Assembly: GCA_900168235.1 (NCBI GenBank)
Contig: FUZG01000003.1
Coordinates: forward strand, 1-64,000
Length of the DNA stretch: 64,000 bases
Origin: Lachnospiraceae bacterium
GTDB lineage: Bacteria > Bacillota > Clostridia > Lachnospirales > Lachnospiraceae
Reading direction: 5' to 3'
Positions 52,343 through 58,724 of this stretch are shown here, in pieces. How positions within the stretch are numbered: the first letter of the stretch is position 1; each line of letters starts with the position of its first letter. The notes under the pieces are model-generated. The model did not search any database. It was not told the origin of the DNA and saw only the letters and a list, made by a program, of their open reading frames with translations. Position numbers and translations under genes: made by a program.

Positions 52343-52389
52343 AAAAGGACTGGTGACTTAGAAATATCTTCTAAGTTACCAGTCCTTTT
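52343..52389. terminator. Strong hairpin downstream of the tRNA gene
   Basis: AAAAGGACTGGT-GACTTAGAA pairs with TTCTAAGT-ACCAGTCCTTTT (one bulge). It lies just past the 3' end of the minus-strand tRNA and has T runs on both strands. Confidence 0.85.
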
Positions 52390-52401
52390 CGCTTATTATG
52401 A

Positions 52402-52473
52402 AGCAGATAGCGGGATTCGAACCCGTGTCGCTGGCTTGGGAAGCCGGAATACTAACCACTGTACTATATCTGC
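52402..52473 (-). tRNA. tRNA-Gly (anticodon CCC)
   Basis: The minus strand folds as a tRNA: acceptor GCAGATA/TATCTGC, T arm CGGGTTCGAATCCCG, and anticodon loop TTCCCAA giving CCC. The discriminator base is T, as expected for bacterial tRNA-Gly. CCA is not encoded. One mismatch (C-A) lies in the anticodon stem. Confidence 0.93.
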
Positions 52474-52725: not shown

Positions 52726-52761
52726 AAAAAAAAGGAAGCGGAAACAATGCTCTCCGCTTCC
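52726..52761 (-). terminator. Intrinsic terminator of the dlt-like operon
   Basis: On the minus strand GGAAGCGG pairs with CCGCTTCC around a 12-base loop and is followed by eight T residues. It lies about 30 bases past the PLP enzyme stop. Confidence 0.85.
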
Positions 52762-52793: not shown

Positions 52794-53948
52794 TCACCCC
52801 AGCGGAACATTAATCTCCGCCGCGGACTCCGAGTCCCGAATAAGCTTCATCTCCGAGCCTGTATCAAGCCAGAGCTCAGGAAGCCTGCGGGATAAAAACA
52901 GCGCAGGTGCCTCCATTGCGGAATAAGCTCCTGTTCTCTCGAAGACAAGCTCATCGTCGATCTCAAGTGATGACAGACTAATGTCTCTCGCCAGAACATC
53001 CGCTGTAGTGCAGAGACTGCCGCAGAGGGTGTAGATTTCCTCATCGCCGTCACGCTTGTTCACCTGACGGATCGGAGGCATCTTCATAGCCATCATCTGG
53101 CCAAAATAATTCACATGGTGCATACCGCCGTCGAGAATAGCGTAATTCACGCCTCTGGTGCACTTAATATCGCAGACAGAAGTATGATACTCTCCGCATG
53201 TAGCCGCAAAATAGCGTCCCATCTCGATGCTTAAAGGGTATTCCTTCGCAAACTCTATAAGGAGAGGCGCCGCCTCATTGAGAATCTCATCATCCTTTTC
53301 CTGTAAAGGCGGATTAAAGTATTCAACAGCAAAACCTGTTCCGTACTCAACTATCTCAGGATCAAAGCCATTCTCTGCCTTTAACTTTGCGAGAATCTCT
53401 CTCACCTCATCAAGATCCTTCTTGATCTTCTTAGCCTTGTTCTTTCCCGTGCCCGAGAAATAGTGAAGGCCCATGAAATTAAGATGCGGCCAGTTTTCAG
53501 CAGAAGAAAGGACATAGATCAGGTCCTCTTCGCTCATTCCAAACTGACTGCCCGCAGAAAAACGAAGGATAACATTCAGCTTTCCGCTGACGCCTTCCTT
53601 CTCTGCTCCTGCCTCCAGAAGCTCCACGTGACGAACACTTTCAGCCGTGAGTATCTCAGAGCCATACCGGATAGCCTCACGAATGTCTGAAAGCTCCTTC
53701 ATCACGCCGGAGTAAAGAATCTTTTCAGGCGGTATATGAAGTCTCCTGACTATAGAAAGCTCACCCGGACTGCAGACCTCAAATCTGGTAATGGCATCCG
53801 GAAGCGGACCTGCCAGTATAAACGGGTTCGCTTTAATAGAATACACAAGCGGTATCCCCGGAAGTGCCTTGTGAACTTTTTCCACCATTTCCGAAAAAAC
53901 ATCGGAACGGAAAATATAATAGGGTGTCTGAGGCTGCATCTTAATCAT
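52794..53948 (-). CDS. Fold-type III PLP-dependent decarboxylase (384 aa)
   Basis: It resembles diaminopimelate/ornithine decarboxylases and BtrK, which decarboxylates an amino acid held on an acyl carrier protein. PLP would bind Lys39 in YSIKANP. Barrel motifs are FEVCSPGELSIVRRL, YGTGFAVEYF and EMGRYFAATCGEY; the C-terminal half has LCGSLCTTADVLARD, with the active-site cysteine-like motif, and TGAYSAME. It starts three bases after the carrier protein gene and is last in the operon. Substrate cannot be read from sequence; alternatives are DAP, ornithine or a carrier-bound amino acid. Confidence 0.85.
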   Translation of the reverse strand: MIKMQPQTPYYIFRSDVFSEMVEKVHKALPGIPLVYSIKANPFILAGPLPDAITRFEVCSPGELSIVRRLHIPPEKILYSGVMKELSDIREAIRYGSEILTAESVRHVELLEAGAEKEGVSGKLNVILRFSAGSQFGMSEEDLIYVLSSAENWPHLNFMGLHYFSGTGKNKAKKIKKDLDEVREILAKLKAENGFDPEIVEYGTGFAVEYFNPPLQEKDDEILNEAAPLLIEFAKEYPLSIEMGRYFAATCGEYHTSVCDIKCTRGVNYAILDGGMHHVNYFGQMMAMKMPPIRQVNKRDGDEEIYTLCGSLCTTADVLARDISLSSLEIDDELVFERTGAYSAMEAPALFLSRRLPELWLDTGSEMKLIRDSESAAEINVPLG

Positions 53949-53951
53949 TAT

Positions 53952-54182
53952 TTATTCCTCTGAAAGGCTCTCGATGAGCTTTGTCAGTGCATCAAGAGAG
54001 TCGAAATTCTCTGCCTTTAATTCCTTGGGTGTGATCTCAATGTCAAATTCGTCATCCAGCTCAGACACGATAGAAACAATATCAAAGGACTCCAGAAGTC
54101 CGCCAGAAACCAGCTCTGTCTCATTCTCAAAGTCAATGTCAGGTCTCTGATCCTGAAGGATTTCAAGTATTCTTTCTCTCAT
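53952..54182 (-). CDS. Acyl/peptidyl carrier protein, DltC-like (76 aa)
   Basis: Four-helix carrier. Ser32 in GGLLESFDIVSI is the likely phosphopantetheine site; the local sequence resembles DltC (ILDSxGTV) with Glu in place of Asp. The following EFDIEITPKEL and a LDALTKLIESL helix complete the fold. It is 76 residues, normal for DltC. A strong AGGAGG precedes it. It follows the adenylation gene and precedes the PLP decarboxylase, so it probably carries an aminoacyl group for both. Confidence 0.93.
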   Translation of the reverse strand: MRERILEILQDQRPDIDFENETELVSGGLLESFDIVSIVSELDDEFDIEITPKELKAENFDSLDALTKLIESLSEE

Positions 54183-54221
54183 GTTTAGTTTCCTCCTGCA
54201 AATAAAAAATAAATATATATA

Positions 54222-55739
54222 TCATATTATCCCTGCTATGGACTTTAGGGAAGATATATCTGTCTTTCCGTTAGGAAGTTTTGGAAGATCCTCAAGCTTA
54301 TTCACTTTTCTCGGGACCATAAAGCCCGGAAGCTCAGTCCTTAAGAATAAAACAAGGTCACGTTTCTCTGCCTCTCCTGAGTAGAAAAGCCAGATCACTT
54401 CCTTTGAATGATCGTAAAGCACTGCACTCTCAGCAACACCTGCTGACTGAGACGCTGCTGCCTCGATCTCGTCAAGCTCGACACGGTGACCCATGTGCTT
54501 TACCTGGCGGTCACGGCGTCCGTGGAACTCAAGGATACCGTCCTCACGGAACTTTCCAATGTCACCTGTTCTGTACATCCGTTCATAGTACTCAGTGACG
54601 AGCGGATTTCTCGTAAATGCTTCCTCCGTGCGCTCCGGGTCTCTGTAATATCCAAGCGCCAGGATCGGTCCGCTGACACAGATCTCACCCTCTTCACCGA
54701 CTGCAGCTTCCTCTCCGTTGTCCTTTAAGAGAAATACCTTGTAATTATCATAGGGTACGCCGATCGGAAGGACTTCATCCTCTGCGACCACGTGATCAAT
54801 GCGGAAATATGTACATGAAGCAGTAGCTTCCGTAGGACCGTACTGATTTACAAAAACTGCATCAGGCAGGTTCTCCTGCCACTTCTTAAGCACCTTTCCC
54901 GGCATTACAGAACCGGAGAAACAGATTTTCTTAAGTGTAGTGAGCTTCGTATCCTCAAAAACACCAAGCTTTGTCAGTACAGTAAGAGCTGATGTGCTCC
55001 AGCCGACTGCGGTGATTTCCTTCTCATTCATGAAATTAAAGAGCTCATCCGGCTGCATAAAATATTCCTTCGGCACCAGATGATCCGAAGCTCCTGTAAG
55101 GAGAGGCACATAAATATCACGGACTGCCGCTATGTAATCAAGCGGTGACTGGCATCCGATCCTGTCCTCAGTCTTTATGGACATCATATGCGTATAAGAG
55201 CTGATGTAGCACATGAGTGAATGATGGCTTGTGAGCACGCCCTTCGGACGTCCGCTGGAACCGGAAGTAAAGATCACGTACAGAGGATCTATCTCTGTCA
55301 TCTTTGTACGGATCTTATTTAAGATGGGCCATGCTGTCATGCCCACATTAAGCTCCTCACGGGTGTATAAAGGGCATTTGGCAGCTTCTGCATATTTTGA
55401 TGCAGTCTCGGCAAAATTCTCCTCTGTGAAGACCGCAGAGGGTCTCAGGGTATCAAGTATCTTATTAATCCTGTCCTCAGGAAGTGCTGCATCGATAGGC
55501 GCATATACATGACCGCTGTACACAACTGCAAGGTAAGAAATAATAGTGTGCACATTTCTGCCCATCATGACAGCTATAGGCGCAGGATCCGTAACCTTCT
55601 CTGCAAGACGGCTTCCCATCCTGCGGGCTTCCTCCATTACCTGTCTAAAAGTCACTGACTCCGCTGAATCTTCGTATGCAACTTTATCCGGCATGATACG
55701 GCCTGTTTTTTCAAGCCACTCCAGAACATTCTTTTCCAT
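54222..55739 (-). CDS. Amino-acid adenylation enzyme, DltA-like (505 aa)
   Basis: Activates a carboxylic or amino acid as an AMP ester and loads the carrier. Motifs in order: P-loop FTSGSSGRPKGV (157-168), NQYGPTEATASCTY (298-310), YRTGDIGKFREDG, GRRDRQVKHMGHRVELDEIE, and LPNGKTD with the catalytic lysine near the C terminus. In DltA the loop reads FCGE with a cysteine linked to D-Ala choice; here it reads FSGS (Ser275). The substrate may therefore not be D-alanine. The gap to the carrier gene is 39 bases. Confidence 0.9.
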   Translation of the reverse strand: MEKNVLEWLEKTGRIMPDKVAYEDSAESVTFRQVMEEARRMGSRLAEKVTDPAPIAVMMGRNVHTIISYLAVVYSGHVYAPIDAALPEDRINKILDTLRPSAVFTEENFAETASKYAEAAKCPLYTREELNVGMTAWPILNKIRTKMTEIDPLYVIFTSGSSGRPKGVLTSHHSLMCYISSYTHMMSIKTEDRIGCQSPLDYIAAVRDIYVPLLTGASDHLVPKEYFMQPDELFNFMNEKEITAVGWSTSALTVLTKLGVFEDTKLTTLKKICFSGSVMPGKVLKKWQENLPDAVFVNQYGPTEATASCTYFRIDHVVAEDEVLPIGVPYDNYKVFLLKDNGEEAAVGEEGEICVSGPILALGYYRDPERTEEAFTRNPLVTEYYERMYRTGDIGKFREDGILEFHGRRDRQVKHMGHRVELDEIEAAASQSAGVAESAVLYDHSKEVIWLFYSGEAEKRDLVLFLRTELPGFMVPRKVNKLEDLPKLPNGKTDISSLKSIAGII

Positions 55740-55761
55740 TTTTTATCCTTTCAGATCCATG

Positions 55762-57351
55762 TCAAAACTTTGCATAGATCATTCCTGCTGCGTCGTATCC
55801 GTTGCCGTATGCGCCGAAGAGAACAACCACAAGCACACAGACATACCAGAAGAGCACACGTACCGCAAACGGCATCGCCATGAGCTTTGCTCGGATAGGA
55901 TACGCTCTCTCCTTCAGCACACTGACAATGATAACAACTATCATTCCGACTGCAACAGTCATATAATCCCAAAAATCCATGCCGAGAAGCCCCAGACTGT
56001 CCGTCAGGACCTTCAGATGGAAATTTGTAAATATCTGCCTGAACATTTCAAGTCCCACGCCGAAAGTATCTGCGCGGAAAAACATCTCTCCTATGATAAC
56101 AAGGAAAAAGAGCTTTATAAAGCGGAACACACGAACAGGCAGTGAATTTTCCGTCAAATGCAGTATTTTAAGGAGCGAAAGGAACGGTCCTTCCACGATA
56201 TTTTCAAATTCGATCAGCACAAAATAGTACATTCCGTAGAAAATATATGTCCATCTGGGACCGTGCCAGAGACCATTTGAAAGCCATACAAGGAAAAGCG
56301 CCAGCGCCGGTGCCGCAAGGTTTCCAACGTACTTTCCGAACCTGTCACGGATCTTTTTCGTGAATTTCATGACCGGCTTTGAAAGGGTCACAGGATAGAA
56401 AATATAATCCTTGAAGAACGTACCGAGAGTGATATGCCAGCGTCTCCAGAAATCAGACGCATTTTTTGCAAAAAACGGCTGACGGAAGTTCTCATGCATA
56501 TGTATCCCAAGGGTCATACCGCTTCCGATAACGATGTCGATGGTACCGGAAAAATCCATATATTCCTGAAATGTGAACAGCACCGCTGCCGCAAGTGACA
56601 GTGATCCGTCCATGATATTATTCTGAAAAAGTATATCAACCGCAGGCGCCAGATGGTCTGCGATAACAAGCTTCTTAAATAAACCCCAGAGTATCCGCTG
56701 ATAGCCTTCCGCGAGATTCCGCGCTTCAACAGGTCTTCCGGCTGAAAGACCGTCTGCGATCTCATTAAATCTCGAAATCGGTCCCTCAAGGAGCTTAGGG
56801 AAAAATGTGAAGAACAGCAGGAGCTTTATAAAATCGTGCTCTGCCTTGATATCTTCACGAAATACGTCAGTTAGGTACGCGATCGCTTCCAGCGTAAAAT
56901 AGGAAATACCTACAGGCACAACGAGATCCAGCATATTCCAGTTGAAGTTACCGTGGAAAGCCTGGCTTATGCGGACAATCGTGAGTCCGACAAAGTCGGC
57001 GTACTTCATGACAACGAGTATCAGGAGAAGCAAAATCACTGCACCTGCAAGCACCTGTTTTCTCTTTTTTGTCCTTGCCTTACGCTTTAATTCCTTATTT
57101 CCGGCAATCTTCTCCATGATGCGTCCGGCTGTGTAAGCTATCCCGGATGACACTATAGGGAATATCACCAGCGCTCCGCTGAAACTCAGGAAAAACAGCA
57201 GGTTTGCTGCGAGAAGCACATATCTCCTGCCCCTTGCCGGAGTCATCTGATACATAAGGAGCACGACCGGCAGGAATATTACAGGATAATACCAGACTGC
57301 ATAGGATATGCCGGTTCCTGAAGTCATGTATTCAAAAAAATGCTCTATCAT
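55762..57351 (-). CDS. MBOAT acyltransferase, DltB-like (529 aa)
   Basis: Membrane-bound O-acyltransferase with about eleven hydrophobic segments. DltB moves D-Ala from carrier to teichoic acid. Family motifs are SYFTLEAIAYLTDVF, FFPKLLEGPISRFNE, WRRWHITLGTFFKDYIFYP and SNGLWHGPRWTYIFYG, where the histidine is the catalytic one. At 529 residues it is longer than DltB (about 390-420), closer to AlgI-type members (about 470-520). Its ATG overlaps the stop of the SGNH gene by four bases, so the two are coupled. Confidence 0.92.
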   Translation of the reverse strand: MIEHFFEYMTSGTGISYAVWYYPVIFLPVVLLMYQMTPARGRRYVLLAANLLFFLSFSGALVIFPIVSSGIAYTAGRIMEKIAGNKELKRKARTKKRKQVLAGAVILLLLILVVMKYADFVGLTIVRISQAFHGNFNWNMLDLVVPVGISYFTLEAIAYLTDVFREDIKAEHDFIKLLLFFTFFPKLLEGPISRFNEIADGLSAGRPVEARNLAEGYQRILWGLFKKLVIADHLAPAVDILFQNNIMDGSLSLAAAVLFTFQEYMDFSGTIDIVIGSGMTLGIHMHENFRQPFFAKNASDFWRRWHITLGTFFKDYIFYPVTLSKPVMKFTKKIRDRFGKYVGNLAAPALALFLVWLSNGLWHGPRWTYIFYGMYYFVLIEFENIVEGPFLSLLKILHLTENSLPVRVFRFIKLFFLVIIGEMFFRADTFGVGLEMFRQIFTNFHLKVLTDSLGLLGMDFWDYMTVAVGMIVVIIVSVLKERAYPIRAKLMAMPFAVRVLFWYVCVLVVVLFGAYGNGYDAAGMIYAKF

Positions 57352-58334
57352 GAGTACAGCACCGCCTTATCCAGATTTTTATCCCAATCTATGTAAAAAA
57401 TCTCATTTCTGTGATCCGGCAGATCATAATTTTCGTAAAGATATCCGCCAAGATAATCCATAACCTTTACAGATCCTTCAAAATTTACGTGATTTCCGTT
57501 ATCCATGGTATCTGTCATCCAGTCGATGCCTATTTCATCAAGCTTCTGATTCAGATCCAGATACTTAACATCCCATTTTTCCGCCCAGTTCTCCACTACG
57601 CGGTGCTTTCCCTTGTTCCAGTTGGTAGCACTTGGAGCTGAGACCAGCAGAAATTCAACGTTCTGCTCTTTACAGATATTCATGATATCACGAAGTATCC
57701 GCTCATTCTCCTCAGGCATCTTCACCTTAGGCGCATCCTCATTCATGTAGTCGCCGCCCTCATAGGGACGGACCATGGTTTCTACGAGAAATCCCTTGAA
57801 AACCTCAGCATCACTGTAATAAACATCTTTGCTTTTCACGGATTCCGGAAGATAGGATTTATAAAAAATATGATAGTGAAAAAGCGGGAACTTCTCTTCC
57901 ATAAGGTTTGTGAACTTCGCTTTCTCGTCACGATAAGCTCCTGCTTCCTCAAAAACTGCATCAGTTTCAAGGATCACGAGCTTCGGGCTCTGAACCTTAA
58001 GGGTTTCTGACAATATCTCCCTTGAGTCGCAGAGTCTGAGGGCACTGGCGCCGAGATTGTAGGATGCGGCACCGTGATCCCTATACAACTGCAAAGGTGA
58101 AAATGAGCGGTATGACTCACTGTTTCCCACAAAAAGCACATCCATGCTCTCAGGACGCTCCTTTGCCACAACCTCATTTTTCATCCTGACTGCCGTAATA
58201 TTATATACTTCTCCGCTCTCCGGACGGATGAGCATAGAAAGCACCATCAGGACAATAAAAAGACCGCCCATAAATATCACGATGCGGACGGCCTCTTTGT
58301 GTTTTATAATAAAATCTTTCATATTCTCCCACAT
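57348..58334 (-). CDS. Membrane-anchored SGNH-like (DltD/AlgX-type) protein (328 aa)
   Basis: One N-terminal membrane helix (IVIFMGGLFIVLMVLSMLI) is followed by an extracytoplasmic SGNH-like domain: FVGNSESYRSFSPLQLY (Ser block), NLGASALRLCDSRE, and NGNHVNFEGSVKV, which supplies the Asp/His-like block. It resembles DltD, which works with DltB on D-alanylation. It is the first gene of the five-gene operon and is followed by the MBOAT gene with an ATGA overlap. No ribosome site is clear for ATG at 58334; ATG at 58322 is an alternative but its GGGAG is too close. Confidence 0.8.
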   Translation of the reverse strand: MWENMKDFIIKHKEAVRIVIFMGGLFIVLMVLSMLIRPESGEVYNITAVRMKNEVVAKERPESMDVLFVGNSESYRSFSPLQLYRDHGAASYNLGASALRLCDSREILSETLKVQSPKLVILETDAVFEEAGAYRDEKAKFTNLMEEKFPLFHYHIFYKSYLPESVKSKDVYYSDAEVFKGFLVETMVRPYEGGDYMNEDAPKVKMPEENERILRDIMNICKEQNVEFLLVSAPSATNWNKGKHRVVENWAEKWDVKYLDLNQKLDEIGIDWMTDTMDNGNHVNFEGSVKVMDYLGGYLYENYDLPDHRNEIFYIDWDKNLDKAVLYS

Positions 58335-58400
58335 GTTAAAAAGCGATATTATTTCCTTTGTACACCGATTTTTGATTATAAAGCAAAACGGTTTTTACGT

Positions 58401-58724
58401 CTACAAAGTACGCTTATTTTCACCAAGGAGTTTCATGGTCTGTGAGAGGATCATGTCTTCCGTGGGAACTGACTCTGATCCGCTTTCTTCTGCGGGAACT
58501 GACTCCGGTTCACTGTCTTCCTGAAATGTCACTTCATGATCAGGCATCACTTCTATGTTTTCTTCCCGGATCTCCGGATTTTCCTCTTCAAAAGTGACCT
58601 CGTGATCCGGCATTACTTCTGTATTCTCTTCTCTTATCTTTTCCACGTGCTTTATCGCGCTTCCGCAGAATCTGCAGAATCTATCCTCTTCGCTTACGCG
58701 CTTACCGCAATTCGTACAGAACAT
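58401..58724 (-). CDS. Zinc-ribbon protein with internal repeat (107 aa)
   Basis: An N-terminal zinc ribbon (FCTNCGKRVSEEDRFCRFCG) precedes an acidic tail. The tail has two near-identical copies of about 23 residues built around EVMPDHEVTF (near residues 34 and 57). There is no membrane helix or signal. GGGAG is seven bases before the ATG. The acidic repeats are encoded by similar DNA, so they are a recent duplication. Its function is unknown. It lies 66 bases before the SGNH gene, on the same strand. Confidence 0.75.
   Translation of the reverse strand: MFCTNCGKRVSEEDRFCRFCGSAIKHVEKIREENTEVMPDHEVTFEEENPEIREENIEVMPDHEVTFQEDSEPESVPAEESGSESVPTEDMILSQTMKLLGENKRTL

Follow-up and report, generated by a model that had tools for sequence, protein, structure and literature searches.

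An operon for putative envelope acylation with proposed decarboxylation on the carrier in a Lachnospiraceae bacterium

Why would an operon that resembles the dlt operon end in an amino acid decarboxylase? The question is raised by a stretch of 64,000 nucleotides (nt) from a Lachnospiraceae bacterium, which we call the window. On its minus strand, between positions 52794 and 58334, lie genes for an SGNH-fold acyltransferase, an MBOAT acyltransferase, an amino-acid adenylation ligase (adenosine monophosphate-forming), a carrier protein and a fold-type III decarboxylase that depends on pyridoxal phosphate (PLP). The original prediction named these five genes in this order. It proposed that an amino acid is loaded on the carrier, decarboxylated there and moved to a surface polymer by the MBOAT protein. 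All five open reading frames are indeed found in that order and place, and we consider it probable that they form a self-contained envelope-acylation operon with on-carrier decarboxylation. The analysis itself shows the gene content, the family assignments, the conservation of the module, a correlation between ligase pocket and decarboxylase, and an acyl-shuttle motif.

The genes are tightly packed. The SGNH gene (57348..58334, 328 amino acids, with an N-terminal helix) overlaps the MBOAT gene (55762..57351, 529 amino acids) by 4 nt. The gap from there to the ligase gene (54222..55739, 505 amino acids) is 22 nt, and the next one, to the carrier gene (53952..54182, 76 amino acids), is 39 nt. 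Only 3 nt separate the carrier gene from the decarboxylase gene (52794..53948, 384 amino acids), as had been predicted. Pfam assigns four of the five proteins to families, all but the SGNH protein.

Identity of the decarboxylase

The decarboxylase matches PF02784 and PF00278 and keeps Lys39, Glu242-x-Gly-Arg, Cys313 and Tyr342. In NCBIfam profile searches it stays below the cut-offs of the LysA model TIGR01048 (143 of 298 bits) and of the exosortase-A decarboxylase model TIGR03099 (171 of 478 bits). A true LysA (427 bits) is encoded on another contig of the same genome. The low score and the presence of this second gene rule out LysA as the identity of the enzyme. A motif comparison found neither the CES nor the EPGR mark of the LysA proteins of its own genome and of Cetobacterium, and its LCT stretch is as in BtrK, a VinO-like enzyme and SbnH.

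Among solved structures BtrK is the first sequence match (1.7e-31), with SbnH (6knh) at 1.5e-23 and LysA (2p3e) at 1e-20. A Foldseek search with the AlphaFold model (pLDDT, the model's confidence score, 90.2) places BtrK first and second (7.8e-30 and 9.8e-29) and LysA at 1.2e-27. Because LysA trails BtrK so narrowly, the fold ranking discriminates weakly.

In a maximum-likelihood tree of 33 rows, rooted at the midpoint only, the decarboxylase family of the window falls into a clade (96/92) with BtrK, SbnH, the exosortase-A decarboxylase (L237) and a Geobacillus enzyme (L239). The same clade takes in the VinO-like enzyme (L244) and decarboxylases encoded near ligases in Streptomyces, Paenibacillus and Rahnella records (L238, L245, L240); a carrier gene is annotated beside those of L238 and L245. 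Six LysA rows and one row of ornithine decarboxylase are separated from the clade (100/99), in a tree with long branches for SbnH, ornithine decarboxylase, the Thermus LysA and others. We call the L244 enzyme VinO-like from its neighbours: on a plasmid of Streptomyces sp. NBC_01343, a ligase gene and the type III PLP enzyme gene adjoin a methylaspartate mutase gene in what looks like a VinN/VinO cassette. This strain differs from the vicenistatin source named in the cited portion of PMC11253843.

A grouping of BtrK, SbnH and MccE is described in the cited part of PMC7857480, apart from L-ornithine decarboxylases but together with diaminopimelate (DAP) decarboxylases and a D-ornithine decarboxylase. 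For the enzyme of the window, sequence and tree support a BtrK-like identity, neither DAP nor ornithine decarboxylase, and the predicted fold supports it narrowly. The comparison of structure and phylogeny with these three types had been suggested as a check of the prediction. Its outcome is favourable: the enzyme clusters with BtrK and apart from LysA and ornithine decarboxylase.

Linkage of the genes and the ligase pocket

We compared 80 named loci, the best 80 of 582 confirmed ones, chosen solely by similarity of the PLP enzyme; part of these records come from the same genomes as other relatives analysed here. In 60 of the 80, genes of all five families share a strand and lie within 7 kb, whatever their order, and ligase and carrier are both present in 75. 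In 16 of the 20 incomplete loci the contig ends within 4 kb of the PLP gene, to one side or to both; the other four, L132, L151, L188 and L190, have no such end and are real exceptions. The strict order SGNH-MBOAT-ligase-carrier-PLP is found in 18 loci, the order ligase-carrier-PLP-MBOAT-SGNH in 27. Of the 79 loci with a carrier gene, 76 have it immediately before the decarboxylase gene. The full set occurs in Lachnospiraceae, Ruminococcus albus, R. bromii, Roseburia porci and Agathobacter ruminis, among other hosts. Genes flanking the operon vary between genomes and give no lead to the polymer.

A survey of 150 family genomes gives the direction of this association. One search, with the decarboxylase as query (E <= 1e-30), found it in 36 genomes, and a separate search with the ligase (E <= 1e-80) found that in 62. 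A ligase gene lies within 3 kb of 33 of the 37 decarboxylase genes. While 35 of the 36 decarboxylase genomes also hold a ligase, 27 of the 62 ligase genomes hold no decarboxylase. Hence the decarboxylase follows the ligase far more than the reverse. The exceptions in these counts are G156 and G192, where the decarboxylase lies away from the ligase, G101, with no ligase at E <= 1e-80, and G048, where both genes sit at contig ends. Within the same genus 40 of 47 relatives carry the decarboxylase at E <= 1e-30, several of these genomes being incomplete. Decarboxylases of the same family that adjoin neither ligase nor carrier are seen in L057, L058 and L060, with an Asp233/Ser301 ligase (see below) elsewhere in the genome. 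The five-gene grouping is more than chance, and the neighbourhood survey that the original prediction had called for confirms that the decarboxylase travels with ligase and carrier.

The ligase matches PF00501 and PF13193 and scores 342 bits against TIGR01733, above the cut-off of 317. It stays below the cut-offs of the DltA model TIGR01734 (277 of 560 bits) and the exosortase-A ligase model TIGR03098 (204 of 592 bits). To describe its pocket we use GrsA numbering, assigned by alignment, with the GrsA numbers taken in part from the cited part of PMC11253843. The window ligase has Asp233, Ile235, Arg239 and Ser301 (its own Asp201, Ile203, Arg207 and Ser275). The amino-group-holding Asp235 corresponds to Asp197 in DltA and Asp230 in VinN, and the same part of PMC11253843 gives pocket roles to Asp197 and Cys269 in the DltA of B. 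cereus. In the window ligase Ile203 replaces the amino-binding Asp and Ser275 replaces the Cys. All six DltA-type ligases, four over and two just under the DltA cut-off, have Asp and Cys at these two columns, and all have Ser233 and Cys301.

The original prediction had singled out Ser275, at the position of the DltA cysteine. The alignment bears out the position; as evidence Ser275 alone is weak, because another ligase of the same genome that is unlinked to a decarboxylase has Ser there too. The stronger mark is the loss of the amino-binding Asp (Ile203) together with Asp201 and Arg207.

Pocket and decarboxylase go together. All 82 decarboxylase-linked ligases have Asp233 together with Ser301, as against a single one of the 13 unlinked ligases and none of the six of DltA type. 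The 82 consist of the window ligase, 14 from the unbiased ligase survey and 67 from named loci, with one gene counted twice (L180 and L200). Two more ligases, with loci too short to show whether a decarboxylase adjoins, carry the pair, in G156 (decarboxylase on another contig) and G048 (at a contig end). We tested five of the genomes whose decarboxylase gene is not next to a ligase gene. Each of the five carries an Asp233/Ser301 ligase elsewhere, and in three a further ligase, with His233/Gly301, adjoins carrier and MBOAT genes. Gene order differs between pocket classes. For the class LDYIAA[VI]RD, to which the window ligase belongs, it is ligase-carrier-PLP in 66 of 67 named loci (the exception is L143). 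For the class FDFDVSVKD it is ligase-PLP-carrier in two of three named loci and in most other relatives of that class. Arg239 is present in all 67 window-class ligases.

VinN offers a partial guide to what this pocket binds. Its Ser299, equivalent to Ser301, and Arg331 are proposed to recognise the carboxylate of methylaspartate (cited parts of PMC7756342 and PMC11253843). A Lys-Arg pair in the corresponding loop is common to the ligases of L244, L238 and L245 (Phe-Arg in L237) and is not found in the window class. Hence different ligase lines seem to have found different ways of binding the carboxylate, and we dropped the attempt to read the substrate directly off VinN. We infer that Arg239 may take over the carboxylate-binding part of VinN Arg331.

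Ligases also occur with MBOAT genes where no decarboxylase is present. We find 13 such loci (L205, L207, L209-L213, L215, L219, L220, L223, L226 and L228), of which 11 have a carrier match and 10 a Tyr233/Gly301 pocket. They appear to form a second carrier-fed MBOAT class in the family. Three decarboxylase-free sets (L230, L231 and L232) are taken up below. In one of these, L230 (G231, 2-850), a formyltransferase-like gene directly follows the carrier gene.

From carrier to envelope

The remaining three proteins resemble the Dlt proteins only in part. The carrier reaches 20.8 bits against PF00550, exactly the cut-off, and stays below the cut-offs of two DltC models (30.8 of 68 and 21.4 of 52 bits). 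Its attachment residue is Ser32; L30, S32 and D34 are kept in at least 95% of 74 aligned sequences, the window included. The MBOAT protein scores 51.9 bits against PF03062 (cut-off 27) and 141 bits against the DltB model TIGR04091, below its cut-off of 375. In an alignment of 69 such proteins, that of the window among them, His306, His363, Tyr526 and Phe529 are each conserved in 95% or more of the sequences present, and the protein is assigned to the MBOAT family with His306 or His363 as candidate catalytic histidine. Neither Pfam nor NCBIfam gives a match for the SGNH protein at 0.01. Its AlphaFold model (35 sequences, mean pLDDT 94.2) retrieves SGNH/GDSL enzymes in Foldseek, with 49 matches at E <= 0.001 that include PatB (7tlv) and, at rank 28, DltD (6pfx). 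Every one of the 35 aligned sequences has Ser72 and His282. By the predicted fold the MBOAT protein thus has an SGNH partner, which does not qualify as a member of the DltD family, having no family-model match and DltD only at rank 28.

The C-terminus of the MBOAT protein suggests how the acyl group crosses over. It reads MIYAKF in the window, with Met for the first Phe, and FVYMQF, FYYMQF, FIYMQF or similar in many relatives. In the cited part of PMC12148441, PatA acetylates the Tyr of an FXYXXF-type tail and evidence is given that the SGNH partner then takes the group; Dlt bears the tyrosine tail on DltX, and the other MBOAT-SGNH pathways are stated to use acyl-coenzyme A (acyl-CoA) and to lack a carrier protein. 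Judged by its motif, the window MBOAT is PatA-like, with the acyl-shuttle tyrosine fused at its C-terminus. The gaps of 22, 39 and 3 nt and the one overlap leave no space inside the operon for a separate DltX, the rest of the genome not having been searched for one. The predicted transfer by the MBOAT protein is refined accordingly: the protein is PatA-like and carries the tyrosine shuttle itself, in an operon whose gene spacing does not accommodate DltX. The same C-terminal motif is present in all three decarboxylase-free sets examined (L230, L231 and L232). PatA-like MBOATs fed by a carrier therefore seem to be more widespread than the decarboxylase.

How could these parts work together? The α-decarboxylation of an amino acid by a PLP enzyme requires a free α-carboxyl group. 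The amino acid must therefore be bound to the carrier through its side-chain carboxyl, as with BtrK and VinO. In the BtrK system glutamate is loaded by its γ-carboxyl and becomes γ-aminobutyrate (GABA); in the VinO type aspartate is loaded by its β-carboxyl and becomes β-alanine. The side-chain attachment is the element that the original hypothesis left unstated. Otherwise that hypothesis is supported in part, by a BtrK-like decarboxylase that travels with ligase and carrier, a ligase below the DltA cut-off and a pocket unlike that of DltA.

For the substrate, the order of loading and decarboxylation, the transfer, the polymer and the physiological role of the pathway we infer the following scheme. 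The ligase would activate a dicarboxylic amino acid, most likely L-glutamate via the γ-carboxyl and next L-aspartate via the β-carboxyl, and load it on the carrier. The BtrK-like enzyme would then strip the free α-carboxylate, leaving a γ-aminobutyryl- (or β-alanyl-) carrier. At the cytoplasmic face the MBOAT protein would take the acyl group from the carrier and hand it to its own Tyr526. The membrane-anchored SGNH protein would receive it on Ser72 and, on the outer side, attach it to an envelope polymer at a hydroxyl group. The end product would be a positively charged aminoacyl ester on that polymer. Since the window class has no Asp235, the amino group may lie at a greater distance from the carboxyl that is activated, which would point to glutamate. 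Our preference for glutamate over aspartate draws solely on this loss and on the Asp233/Arg239 pair, and is held with low confidence. As a guess of the same kind, glutamate would be slightly ahead of all other substrates taken together if the scheme holds, aspartate would come a clear second, and other substrates would share a small remainder.

Several observations weigh against this scheme. Four untruncated named loci have no SGNH gene or neither transferase gene, and 4 of the 37 decarboxylase genes do not lie beside a listed ligase. G231 holds the sole unlinked ligase with Asp233/Ser301, in a genome with no such decarboxylase. The Lys239 of the second pocket class is also found in 12 of the 13 decarboxylase-free ligases, so a basic residue at 239 is not diagnostic. 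VinN Arg331 has no counterpart in the window-class ligase by alignment. Since the decarboxylase-free ligases mostly resemble one another, the pocket correlation may partly be shared descent. By fold, LysA follows BtrK at a short distance. The 9 kb that surround the Geobacillus decarboxylase contain no annotated ligase, and SbnH, whose substrate is a free siderophore intermediate (cited part of PMC7857480), is in the same clade. Hence clade membership is no proof of a carrier-bound substrate.

The last point leads to the strongest rival, in which the PLP enzyme decarboxylates a free amino acid and the ligase loads the finished product, the remaining pathway being unchanged. This order is known from IdnL3 with β-glutamate (cited part of PMC11284099), and SbnH speaks for it as well. 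Against it, Arg239 and Ser301 would suit a substrate that still bears a second carboxylate, and the carrier gene directly before the decarboxylase gene is a weak further point. We regard the free-first order as unlikely, though it deserves to be kept in mind. Less likely still is a route that leads from the decarboxylated acyl-carrier to a small molecule, a glycolipid or a substituent on a sugar and not to an envelope polymer ester, and in which the MBOAT-SGNH pair may even use another donor. Trios of ligase, carrier and decarboxylase without MBOAT and SGNH genes do occur in L188, L190 and L125 (where the contig ends 3.7 kb downstream), beside open reading frames that we read as glycosyltransferase-like, with a hexapeptide transferase in L125 and L188. 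However, both transferases accompany the trio in three quarters of the named loci (60/80), in strict order before it (18) or after it (27), and the window operon is packed throughout.

An ordinary D-alanylation operon that carries a decarboxylase along by chance is very improbable. The ligase, carrier and MBOAT protein weakly match the DltA, DltC and DltB models, and no ligase of the genome exceeds the DltA cut-off; both points speak for such an operon. Yet all three proteins stay under the equivalog cut-offs, the ligase has lost both the amino-binding Asp and the Cys of DltA, and the five families recur together in 60 of the 80 named loci. On the cut-offs and the pocket we reject a classical dlt operon.

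On-carrier decarboxylation in an envelope pathway thus remains our preferred reading, and other loci of the same genome may share in it. The genome has eight MBOAT matches, that of the window included. The closest paralogue (56%) lies in a second SGNH-MBOAT pair (L094, G000:C10, 7993-10580), 41% and 56% identical to the proteins of the window, with no adjoining ligase, carrier or decarboxylase gene; this pair may share the carrier of the window operon. A further locus without a ligase (L095, G000:C5, 1862-11914) combines a sulfatase-family gene, a TupA-like ATP-grasp gene, an orphan carrier, an MBOAT gene (FIYAGF tail) and an SGNH-like gene. Its sulfatase-family gene is weakly LtaS-like (71 of 970 bits), a lead only towards the polymer. 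The genome has just three ligase matches, none over the DltA cut-off. From few ligases and several MBOAT-SGNH pairs it would follow that a single ligase and decarboxylase might supply several of the pairs. A ligase with a Tyr233/Ser301 pocket lies in L106 (G000:C11, 8423-11305), where a ligase-carrier pair precedes a gene for a 353-amino-acid protein without a Pfam match, GNAT-like in our own reading, near a polysaccharide biosynthesis (flippase family) gene. Outside this genome, the trios of L188 and L190 are from Pseudobutyrivibrio; in L188 the hexapeptide transferase lies upstream of the trio, and downstream of it is a ligase that narrowly misses the DltA cut-off (551 of 560 bits). Genuine DltA is rare in the family, over the cut-off in 4 of the 150 genomes.

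Signals around the operon are modest. Upstream of the SGNH gene, on the minus strand, a promoter-like site TAGACG-17-TATAAT (58375..58403) is a consensus match only. Directly 3' of the PLP gene and on the same strand lies a terminator-like stem-loop (52734..52761) of 11 pairs followed by TTTTTTTT, a run of eight T. The counts of such sites in the region, 22 promoter-like against 10.8 expected from shuffles and 8 terminator-like against 5.3, are not much above expectation. Shortly downstream are a tRNA-Gly (CCC) gene on the minus strand (52402-52473) and a 20-pair palindrome (52343-52389).

Comparison with known systems

Among the open-access matches listed, judged by titles and openings of abstracts (subscription papers and preprints lie outside this scope), none reports a dlt-like or MBOAT-SGNH operon that includes a decarboxylase. 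Operonic association of SGNH and MBOAT genes with other genes is reported in PMC12419801, whose cited part mentions no decarboxylase. With slightly more doubt than conviction we propose a widespread and undescribed envelope chemistry. GABA or β-alanyl esters, made by on-carrier decarboxylation and attached by a carrier-fed PatA-like MBOAT-SGNH pair, would occur in gut Lachnospiraceae and Ruminococcaceae and replace D-alanylation where DltA is rare; in the genome of the window one ligase and decarboxylase may serve up to three pairs. If this is true, then many gut bacteria bear a surface GABA or β-alanine ester that standard D-alanine assays would not detect. Surface charge would be altered, and hence perhaps sensitivity to cationic peptides. 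The operon would also break the rule, given in the cited part of PMC12148441, that Dlt alone feeds an MBOAT-SGNH pair from a carrier. Furthermore, ligases with and without a decarboxylase would provide a natural set for reading the pocket rules of side-chain activation.

With the Dlt system (DltA-DltC-DltB-DltX-DltD) the operon has in common a ligase, a carrier, an MBOAT protein, an SGNH protein and, as predicted, a carrier-bound aminoacyl donor. It differs in its added decarboxylase, in a ligase pocket without the amino-binding Asp and Cys, in a tyrosine motif fused to the MBOAT protein instead of a separate DltX, and in the sub-threshold scores of ligase, carrier and MBOAT protein. With PatA-PatB and similar O-acetyltransferases it shares an MBOAT protein whose own C-terminus bears the tyrosine motif, and an SGNH partner anchored in the membrane. 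Those pathways have no carrier and an acyl-CoA donor (cited part of PMC12148441), whereas the window operon has a ligase, a carrier and a decarboxylase.

BtrK-BtrI of butirosin and VinN-VinL-VinO of vicenistatin, represented in our tree by BtrK itself and the L244 enzyme, likewise combine genes for a ligase, a carrier and a PLP decarboxylase, the last from the clade that also holds the window enzyme. Their product enters an antibiotic, whereas the window operon continues with an envelope acyltransferase pair. In contrast to VinN, the window ligase is of the DltA/nonribosomal peptide synthetase line and lacks the Lys330-Arg331 loop. The exosortase A-associated proteins (TIGR03098/TIGR03099) also have ligase and decarboxylase genes adjacent, near glycosyltransferase genes in L237, yet the window proteins score far under both cut-offs. 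We know of no function for this exosortase A-associated pair.

By its sequence the window operon is a carrier-fed hybrid with a Dlt-like carrier and a PatA-like tail, distinct both from a Dlt operon and from a simple PatAB pair. Its proteins match broad families only and reach none of the equivalog cut-offs tested for the Dlt, LysA and exosortase-A models. The parts are known individually; together they would work like Dlt plus PatAB plus BtrK.

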